Below, piece by piece: positions 15,845 to 17,756 of a stretch of DNA of 64,000 nucleotides. Position 1 is the stretch's first letter. Each line of letters starts with the position of its first letter. A program made the position numbers and the translations under genes. Location of the stretch: positions 620,001-684,000 of the forward strand of contig JAJOHG010000005.1 of assembly GCA_021029095.1 (NCBI GenBank), in the 5' to 3' direction. The notes under the pieces are model-generated. The model was not told the origin of the DNA. It worked only from the letters and a program-made list of their open reading frames with translations, and made no database searches. Source of the DNA: Phellopilus nigrolimitatus. Taxonomy: Eukaryota > Basidiomycota > Agaricomycetes > Hymenochaetales > Hymenochaetaceae.

Positions 15845-17756
15845 ATGAACTCAACGGAACCTGCTGCAGTGCCATGTCAAAGCTCCTCATGTATCAACTC
15901 AAGGCCACCTTCTCGTTTGGAATGTCCGACGTGCAGCAAGTGCGTGCGTCGTAAATCAGCGAGCGCGTTTTTGAGACTTATGCGCTTCTTCCTGAAATCC
16001 AGGCTTGGTATTAAAGGCTCATTTTTCTGTACCCAAGAGTGCTTTAAAGCAGGATGTGCGTCGAATTCAGAGTCCTGAAAAACTTAGTTCTTATTATTGA
16101 TGAGCTCAGGGGTAAGTATACAGAGTGAAGCTTGGATCGCAGAAATAACATCATCTCCAGAAACAGCACAAAGTCATACACGACTTCTTGAATCTGTCGA
16201 TTAGCAAGAAAGGTAAAGCTTATCTGTTGTCTGTTTCTGAAGTTCTGACATGCTGTACAGACGATGACTCCAATCCCTTCAGAAATTATGGCTTTTCTGG
16301 TTCTCTCAGACCGATGTACCCTCTGTCGCCGAAGCGCGTAGTGCCAAGTCACATCCAAAGACCTGATTATGCTGATGATGGTAGGATAAAGGCTTTCTTC
16401 CATTCCACCCGAGGACTGTGAGCCAATTGACTTCTTTCGTTTCTTGAAATTGTACAAAGCGCGTGGGTTTTCGAAATCTGAAAGCCTGGAGCAGACGAGG
16501 CCTCCTCGGATACTGGACTCCGAGGAACAGGAGAAGCTGCGCACTGCCTGTAAAGTGAGCAACCGACGTTCAGCGTAGCTCTATTATTCACCCTCAATCT
16601 CGTCCAATCTTCGCGCAGCTTGCACGAGAAGTTTTAGACCTAGCCGCGGCTGCAGTTAAGCCTGGTATAACCACCGACGAAATAGACGAAGTAGTTCACA
16701 GTGCGACAATTGAGCGAAACGCATATCCCTCACCCTTGAACTATCGATGCTTCCCTAAATCTGTATGCACGTATGTCATCGTTTTTTTTTTTTTTTTTTT
16801 TTGTGGTATGTTGTTAAAATGCGACCGTTCACCTATTCGCGACCGGTCCAGATCCATCAATGAAGCCATCTGCCATGGAATTCCAGACCGCCGCCCACTG
16901 TTAGACGGAGATATCATCAACATCGGTCGGGCTTTTTCATTTTAAATTTACCTTCGGAAGGCTCACTCTTCACCTCAGACGTCAGTTTATACTATGACGG
17001 CATGTACCTGGCACGATTTCGACGCGGATGAATGCTGAGAATGCTTCTGGACTTGCAGGCTATCATGGAGACGTGAACGAGACCTACGCAGTCGGCGAAA
17101 TCGACGAAGAATCTAAAAACCTTATCCGAACGACTCGCGAGTGTTTAGACGAGGCCATCAAAATCTGCAAACCTGGCGCCTTGTTTCGGGACATTGGCAA
17201 AGTGATGTTCGTAGCCCTTATCAGTCCTTATCCGACTGTTGTGAATCCTATTCTACTAGAGAGCCAATTGCCAAGCGCAACGGTTGTTCTGTTGTGCGCA
17301 ATTACACGGGCCATGGGATAAACGACCTTTTCCATTGCAACCCGAACATACCGCACTATGCCAAAAATAGGGCTGTTGGGACAATGCAGCCTGGAATAGT
17401 GAGTTTCTCCTTTCATTGGCTTGACAAGGCTCAGCGCTGACAAGTTTCGGAAGGCATTTACAATTGAACCGGTTGGCCGCCGTCCTTCATTTCCGTATTT
17501 TCGCCAGCTGGCTAAACTTGCTTTTATCGCATCTTCTTCCAGATGATCAATCTCGGCAATTGGAATGGCATCCATTGGCCAGATGACTGGACGTGCACTA
17601 CGGCAGACGGGAAAAGGAGCGCTCAGTTCGAGGAAACTTTGTTGTGAGTTTTCCTTATCCAAGAGGCAGGCAATTCCTTGATGACGAACGATGAATCATA
17701 GGATAACGGAAACGGGCGTCGAAGTTTTGACTGCGGGTGCAAAGCGGGATTTCTAA
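15845..17756 (+). CDS. MAP1: Methionine aminopeptidase 1
   Basis: Removes the initiator Met co-translationally at the ribosome. Fourteen exons: 15845..15939, 16003..16055, 16110..16111, 16161..16212, 16261..16380, 16460..16554, 16619..16770, 16852..16925, 16979..16999, 17059..17201, 17264..17398, 17454..17471, 17543..17643, 17702..17756; 1116 nt, 371 aa, the family length. The N-terminus is a MYND-like zinc finger (CPTCSK, FFCTQECFKAGW). Catalytic ligands are all visible: two Asp in IDVSLYYDGYHGDVNET, His in YTGHGIN, Glu in FTIEPMIN and QFEETLL. The third exon is only GG, which completes the Trp codon of KAGWKQHKV; without it the frame stops. The intron after 16999 has a GC donor. Exons of 18 and 21 nt also occur. 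The intron at 16771-16851 contains a T21 tract. Confidence 0.92.
16782..16802. repeat. T21 homopolymer in a MAP1 intron
   Basis: An uninterrupted run of 21 T near the 5' end of the intron 16771..16851, which is 81 nt and longer than the neighbours. It is a likely source of length variation. Confidence 0.85.

Follow-up and report, generated by a model that had tools for sequence, protein, structure and literature searches.

Internal coding exons of very few nucleotides have precedents in several lineages. In the excerpts of the source papers drawn on here, exons of 2–5 bp are given as known in Arabidopsis, Drosophila and humans (PMC12940212, citing another work), one-nucleotide exons are described as proven in plants for APC11 and VPS55 (PMC4674806; PMC8831610), and a one-nucleotide exon of Fusarium CYP621A is reported with SRA reads (PMC12940212). 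Fungal stwintrons (PMC5639578) and the P450 microexons of Phanerochaete chrysosporium (PMC1184071) provide further points of reference. A search of the open-access literature, which leaves most subscription papers outside, found no two-nucleotide exon in MetAP1 or in any basidiomycete; the consulted part of a review of non-canonical splicing (PMC13149111) yielded nothing on fungi or on exons of one to two nucleotides, and in PMC3990503 microexons appear once, as an alignment setting.

Here we describe the methionine aminopeptidase 1 gene (MAP1) of Phellopilus nigrolimitatus, placed by taxonomy look-up in the Hymenochaetaceae (Agaricomycetes), in which the dinucleotide GG appears to form a complete internal exon. 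The gene lies within a 64,000-nucleotide stretch of DNA (the window), which is part of a 1,393,024-base contig of a 56.4 Mb genome.

The MAP1 gene and its duplicate

The best database matches of the predicted protein are two deposited P. nigrolimitatus methionine aminopeptidases, and its best matches in the PDB are MetAP1 chains. Its membership of the MetAP1 group is further indicated by Pfam matches to zf-C6H2 (62.8 bits, cut-off 30) and Peptidase_M24 (175.3 bits, cut-off 23). The 14 exons of the model (Table 1), of 95, 53, 2, 52, 120, 95, 152, 74, 21, 148, 139, 18, 101 and 54 nt plus the last base of the stop codon, maintain an open frame throughout and encode 374 amino acids, rather than the 371 codons counted in the first-pass annotation. 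All of the 13 introns, which measure 48–81 nt, have GT donors except intron 9, and introns 1 and 2 share an identical 6-nt donor; a TTGAT element in intron 2 (CTGAT in the duplicate copy) is a possible branch site.

Table 1. Features of the P. nigrolimitatus MAP1 locus and its neighbours, in window coordinates (slashes, here and in the text, mark splice boundaries).
Feature	Position	Strand	Description
MAP1 coding region	15845..17756	+	Methionine aminopeptidase 1; 14 exons, 374 codons plus stop
Exon 1	15845..15939	+	Start codon and first half of the zinc finger
Exon 2	16003..16055	+	Phase 1 end; its final T opens the split Trp codon
Intron 2	16056..16109	+	54 nt, GTGCGT...CTCAG
Exon 3 (putative)	16110..16111	+	GG, two nucleotides; bases 2 and 3 of the Trp50 codon
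Intron 3	16112..16160	+	49 nt, GTAAGT...CCAG
Exon 4	16161..16212	+	Phase 0 start at AAA; carries KQHKVIH
Homopolymer in intron 7	16782-16802		T run of about 21 bases; shorter and interrupted in the paralog
Exon 9	16979..16999	+	21 nt; absent from deposited protein P0001
Intron 9	17000..17058	+	GC-AG, GCATGT...GCAG; kept in the paralog
Exon 12	17454..17471	+	18 nt
Opposite-strand gene upstream of MAP1	14641-15649	-	ORF 14644-15306 matches the Pfam NYN domain (36.8 bits); ORF 15272-15649 matches no Pfam family
Dephospho-CoA kinase (CoaE) gene	18637-19410	+	189.5 bits

The locus is duplicated as an inverted repeat of a 3.2 kb segment approximately 72 kb away, at 92.5% identity. The duplicated segment (14914-18088 in the window, and ~706.9-710.1 kb in C445, L003) comprises MAP1 and the 5' part of the NYN-domain gene; two MAP1 proteins, placed on contigs of equal length, are likewise found for Sanghuangporus baumii among the matches listed. 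The paralogous MAP1 also has 14 exons and an open frame, of 375 codons, and retains the donor GTGCGT together with CAG/GG/GT and T/GG/AAA, its intron 3 donor being weaker (GTACCT, 4/6 matches) and following a 5-nt insertion. The dN/dS ratio between the two copies is 0.25, indicating selection on the modelled coding frame in one copy or both. The paralog reads NYVGHG for NYTGHG, has KGIH for KVIH in the zinc finger and contains one extra codon (NPKYIPH), and it may be drifting or specialised.

Evidence for a two-nucleotide exon

Exon 2 ends ...AAA GCA GGA T at 16055, followed by GTGCGT, and exon 4 begins AAA CAG CAC at 16161, directly after CCAG. The intervening gap (16056-16160) contains CTCAG/GG/GTAAGT, in which the GG at 16110-16111 is flanked by canonical AG and GT and is required for the frame, and one intron spanning the whole gap would, at 105 nt, exceed the length of every intron among the 13 in the model. 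The first-pass annotation had proposed the exon from this arrangement of T, CTCAG/GG/GTAAGT and AAA, every element of which is present, and the two resulting introns, which it considered typical in length, do fall within the range observed for this gene.

We enumerated every one- and two-intron solution at the site, allowing GT or GC at the donor and AG at the acceptor, with a minimum intron length of 40 nt. This procedure returned 37 in-frame open solutions (6 single, 31 double), of which three retain both CFKAG and KQHKVIH. Only one gives CFKAGW..H, namely the two-nucleotide exon, which reads CFKAG-W-KQHKVIH and whose donors (5/6 and 6/6 matches to GTRAGT) have the best total among the 37; a variant with identical donors, in which an acceptor is shifted downstream by 6 nt, is open, and equal in donor total, and loses KQ. 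The two histidines of KQHKVIH are, we assume from the C6H2 family name, the last ligands of the zinc finger. The arrangement is also rare by chance. When the gap was shuffled 20,000 times with dinucleotide composition preserved, the outer splice sites held constant and a minimum of 45 nt required of each intron, any two-nucleotide exon arose in 7.9% of the shuffled gaps and a GG exon in 0.1%, and a GG exon with YAG and a donor matching at least 5/6 of the consensus arose in 0/20,000. The zf-C6H2 score is 65.4 bits when the site reads W and 56.0 when it reads C, and it is 47.3 bits in the form deposited as P0001.

Judged from sequence, we put the probability that GG is a genuine two-nucleotide coding exon of MAP1, most likely constitutive, at roughly 0.93. 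The enumeration, the Pfam scores and the homolog comparison below support the claim, made in the first-pass annotation, that T plus GG restores a tryptophan and with it the match to the MetAP1 zinc finger, and hence the predicted role of GG in supplying the last two bases of the W50 codon.

The two deposited Phellopilus proteins depart from this model, and from one another, exactly at the GG site. P0001, the product of the window gene, reads KAGF/IHDF without WKQHKV and also skips the 21-nt exon 9, and P0002, the product of the paralog, reads KAGCKQHK; each of the two corresponds to one of the enumerated splice solutions.

The site in homologous proteins

Three homolog searches, taking the best 120 of 7,987, 7,998 and 7,998 matches, provided 173 different proteins, which we divided by source into 41 jgi/lgn/eukprot entries and 132 genome annotations, the latter including the two Phellopilus proteins. 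Nearly all of the jgi/lgn/eukprot entries have frames without interruption, on contigs between 1.1 and 16.5 kb long (no contig is given for eukprot P0157), and, since the gene has many introns, these 41 are probably transcript-derived. All 31 of them that contain exon 2 have an intact W motif, the other 10 of the 41 being without that exon, whereas the 132 listed genome annotations comprise 42 that are intact, 74 garbled at the site and 16 without a recognised exon 2, i.e. an intact motif in 42 of the 116 that have exon 2; these counts are not independent trials, because the species share ancestry. The 42 intact annotations may represent genes in which one intron has been lost, and among the 16 P0162 (Exidia) has the W, preceded by damaged sequence. 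With a looser pattern the site is intact in 43/132 genome annotations (33%) and in 31/41 jgi/lgn/eukprot entries, compared with 76–98% and 29 to 39 of 41, respectively, for nine other junctions, although this comparison is a rough control as the motifs differ in strictness. Short-contig P0012, which has W, shares 97.9% identity with P0041, a Tricholoma matsutake annotation that is garbled. Scans with the exon 5 peptide gave 25 pattern matches in viral contigs, with no relative among them, and five loci in genome contigs, in bacterial records and with weak peptide matches, which were left out of the comparison.

The errors in these annotations are patterned. Were exon 2 always to end in a lone T, any faulty junction would have to produce a T-initial codon, and residues of this kind occupy the site in 73 of the 74 garbled annotations (48 C, 10 Y, 6 S, 4 F, 4 W and 1 L; the exception is Q in P0102). 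Cysteine would here represent T/GT, that is, exon 2 read on into the intron. Once the Cys cases that rejoin at x.HK are excluded, 41 remain, and 34 of these are compatible with a donor matching GTRAGT at 5/6 positions or better, 20 of them perfectly, against 23% and 2%, respectively, for a control of Cys followed by random dipeptides from the same proteins. At the downstream boundary a CAG acceptor touching the phase-0 exon 4 leads to the expectation of Gln before K.HK, and Gln is found directly before it in 18 of the 55 garbled or exon-2-less annotations that have K.HK. With T on the upstream side and a phase-0 AAR on the downstream side, two bases remain to be accounted for.

Some proteins appear to read through the exon itself. 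Conservation in the relatives is judged from proteins, and back-translation shows possible DNA only; on that basis the W-V-S of P0060 (Cyclocybe) can correspond to GG/GTAAGT, the W-V-G of P0090 (Moniliophthora) to GG/GTAGGT, the W-A-R of P0133 (Mycena) to GG plus a GC-type donor, and the Q-G-K-H of P0006 (Sanghuangporus weigelae) to CA/GG/GTAAGC after the acceptor. In P0117, one of the four garbled proteins with W, the next residue is K, the true one, with no donor, and the protein fails later. Retention of intron 2 with removal of intron 3 should generate G/GG, i.e. Gly before exon 4, preceded by a residue whose codon allows a YA end. Eight proteins (six annotations together with short-contig P0161 and P0165) have Gly directly before exon 4, and in 8/8 the preceding residue is YAG-compatible, the background being 46.5% per residue. 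P0161 and P0165 are two of the 10 short-contig proteins without exon 2, and their Gly in place of Trp fits retention of intron 2 and not a mature form. The Gly pattern also fits a genome in which GG adjoins exon 4, for which P0161, whose exon 4 starts with Pro as in Auricularia and Exidia, may be a candidate.

The clearest case is a pair of Cyclocybe aegerita proteins, which constitute strong evidence. In P0125 exon 2 is read one base out of frame, and a single DNA solution fits both frames: the protein runs into GTN, through an intron 2 of 70 nt, and then has Thr-Gly before KTHK, as from ACAG/GG/AAR. In its close homolog P0060 GG is followed by GTNAGY. GG would adjoin AAR in P0125 and a donor in P0060, the combination required of a two-nucleotide exon, although the pair falls short of proof because the two sequences are not identical (they differ at nine of the first 248 residues that they share beyond the site).

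Taxonomic range

Taxonomic order was looked up for ten species. Garbled annotations occur in the Agaricales (Tricholoma, Cyclocybe), Boletales (Pisolithus), Russulales (Lactarius), Polyporales (Trametes), Hymenochaetales (Phellopilus, Sanghuangporus), Gloeophyllales (Gloeophyllum) and Sistotremastrales (Sistotremastrum), with a weak sign in the Cantharellales, where a Botryobasidium annotation has Cys directly before K.HK and the related short-contig P0156 has W. The two-nucleotide exon is probably old in the Agaricomycetes and common to many orders, and the intron pair, for which a comparison with relatives had been suggested in the first-pass annotation, is by the protein evidence probably kept in many members of the class.

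A real but recent exon, restricted to Phellopilus or the Hymenochaetaceae, with garbling elsewhere due to other causes, is in our estimation unlikely, whilst still deserving some weight. The motif is intact in the annotations of Rickenella and Schizopora, presumably members of the same order as Phellopilus, and also in annotations of Auricularia and of one Rhizoctonia; intron count is not readable from these proteins, and all species other than Phellopilus were assessed from proteins rather than DNA. A recent origin is nevertheless difficult to reconcile with the appearance in other species of T-codon residues, of GTRAG-like read-through and of Gln or YAG-compatible Gly before exon 4, or with GG plus donor-like sequence in Cyclocybe, Moniliophthora and Mycena. 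We consider it likely that an obligatory two-nucleotide exon, located at a zinc-finger Trp codon of the housekeeping gene MAP1, has been kept across most orders of the Agaricomycetes, forcing the ordered removal of two introns, and that over half of the genome annotations listed misread it.

Alternative readings of the Phellopilus gap

A single GC-AG intron (16058-16160, donor GCGTCG) would extend exon 2 by GT and place Cys at the site (KAGCKQHK), as in deposited P0002. Such an intron preserves the frame and both flanks, has a precedent in intron 9 of the same gene, and would account for the Cys found directly before x.HK in P0002 and, among the matches listed, in 6 further annotated homologs. 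We regard it as very unlikely, however, because the donor has only 2/6 consensus matches, the intron would be 103 nt long compared with 48–81 nt for the others, Cys occupies the site in 0/31 of the jgi/lgn/eukprot homologs with exon 2, the zf-C6H2 score of the Cys form is 9 bits lower, and the internal CAG/GG/GTAAGT is left unexplained. The form deposited as P0001 implies instead a single intron at 16056-16173, joining exon 2 to the TC of AAAG/TC to give Phe. This is an open solution with a good donor that agrees with P0001 at the site, yet it removes WKQHKV and with it one of the two finger histidines, the Pfam zf-C6H2 match then ends at residue 50 with 47.3 bits, and P0001 itself also omits the conserved 21-nt exon 9; it appears less credible still. 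Finally, that the frame problem is an artefact of sequencing error or of a dying gene, as the existence of two MAP1 copies and the oddities of the paralog (V replacing T in NYTGHG, one additional codon and a weak donor) might suggest, can be given almost no weight when both copies have the same gap structure and open 14-exon frames, their dN/dS of 0.25 speaks against a dying gene, and annotations from many genera are garbled at that same codon.

Proposed order of splicing

With the two-nucleotide exon as the preferred reading, introns 2 and 3 would each be recognised as one intron unit and removed in succession. Recognition by intron definition is the usual view for short fungal introns. The first-pass annotation had argued that so small an exon implies recursive or intron-defined splicing: the geometry implies consecutive removal of the two introns, intron definition applies in its usual sense, with no special need for it created by the tiny exon, and strict recursive splicing, with its zero-length ratchet exon, does not apply, since in CAG/GG/GTAAGT two nucleotides lie between the splice sites. 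U1 occupies positions -3 to +6 of a donor and, on GG/GTAAGT, would therefore overlap the terminal G of the preceding acceptor. Simultaneous occupancy of the intron 2 acceptor and the intron 3 donor is accordingly hardly feasible, and the two sites would have to be used in turn. Once either intron had gone, the one remaining would adjoin an exon of normal size: prior removal of intron 2 would leave ...GGATGG/GTAAGT, and prior removal of intron 3 would leave CAG/GGAAACAG. Either order is possible. Both half-spliced readings occur among the garbled models (W-V-S and Thr-Gly, respectively), but these offer no choice between the orders, being annotations and not intermediates. Purifying selection would be expected to keep the arrangement, because loss of GG leads to a stop (T plus AAA) or to damage to the zinc finger.

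Comparison with known systems

If this reading is correct, MAP1 provides a deeply conserved ultra-short exon in a fungal housekeeping gene, with a range wider than that of the Fusarium case, and a ready system in which to study how two introns with overlapping splice sites are processed by the spliceosome. The conserved zinc finger would then be wrong in more than half of the listed genome-derived MetAP1 proteins, a matter of consequence for annotation software and for any study relying on them.

Judged against the published excerpts available, the Fusarium CYP621A exon shares with the MAP1 GG its place as an ultra-short internal coding exon in a conserved motif of a filamentous fungus, its flanking by G (AG/G/GT), its omission by automatic annotation and its discovery through phase incompatibility; it differs in being 1 nt long, in belonging to an ascomycete, in its support by reads and in residing in a P450 gene said to be rarely expressed (PMC12940212). 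The APC11 and VPS55 exons of plants, conserved over land plants, are similarly ultra-short, located in conserved genes and missing from reference annotations, but are of 1 nt and were proven by cDNA, minigene or RT-PCR tests. Stwintrons resemble the MAP1 arrangement in that adjacent short U2 introns are excised by consecutive reactions at one apparent intron position (PMC5639578). In these, as the source portrays them, a splice element of one intron is interrupted by the other and the two are not separated by any exon bases, unlike the two coding bases between complete introns in MAP1; we rejected a stwintron at this site, both introns having complete GT...AG ends with GG between them. The P450 genes of Phanerochaete chrysosporium, a white-rot basidiomycete, likewise combine tiny exons with frequent introns of 45–55 bp, the shortest exon noted in the part consulted being 6 bp (PMC1184071). 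Exons of one nucleotide were thus already known, and what sets the MAP1 exon apart is its probable antiquity across the class, together with how widely it is misannotated.
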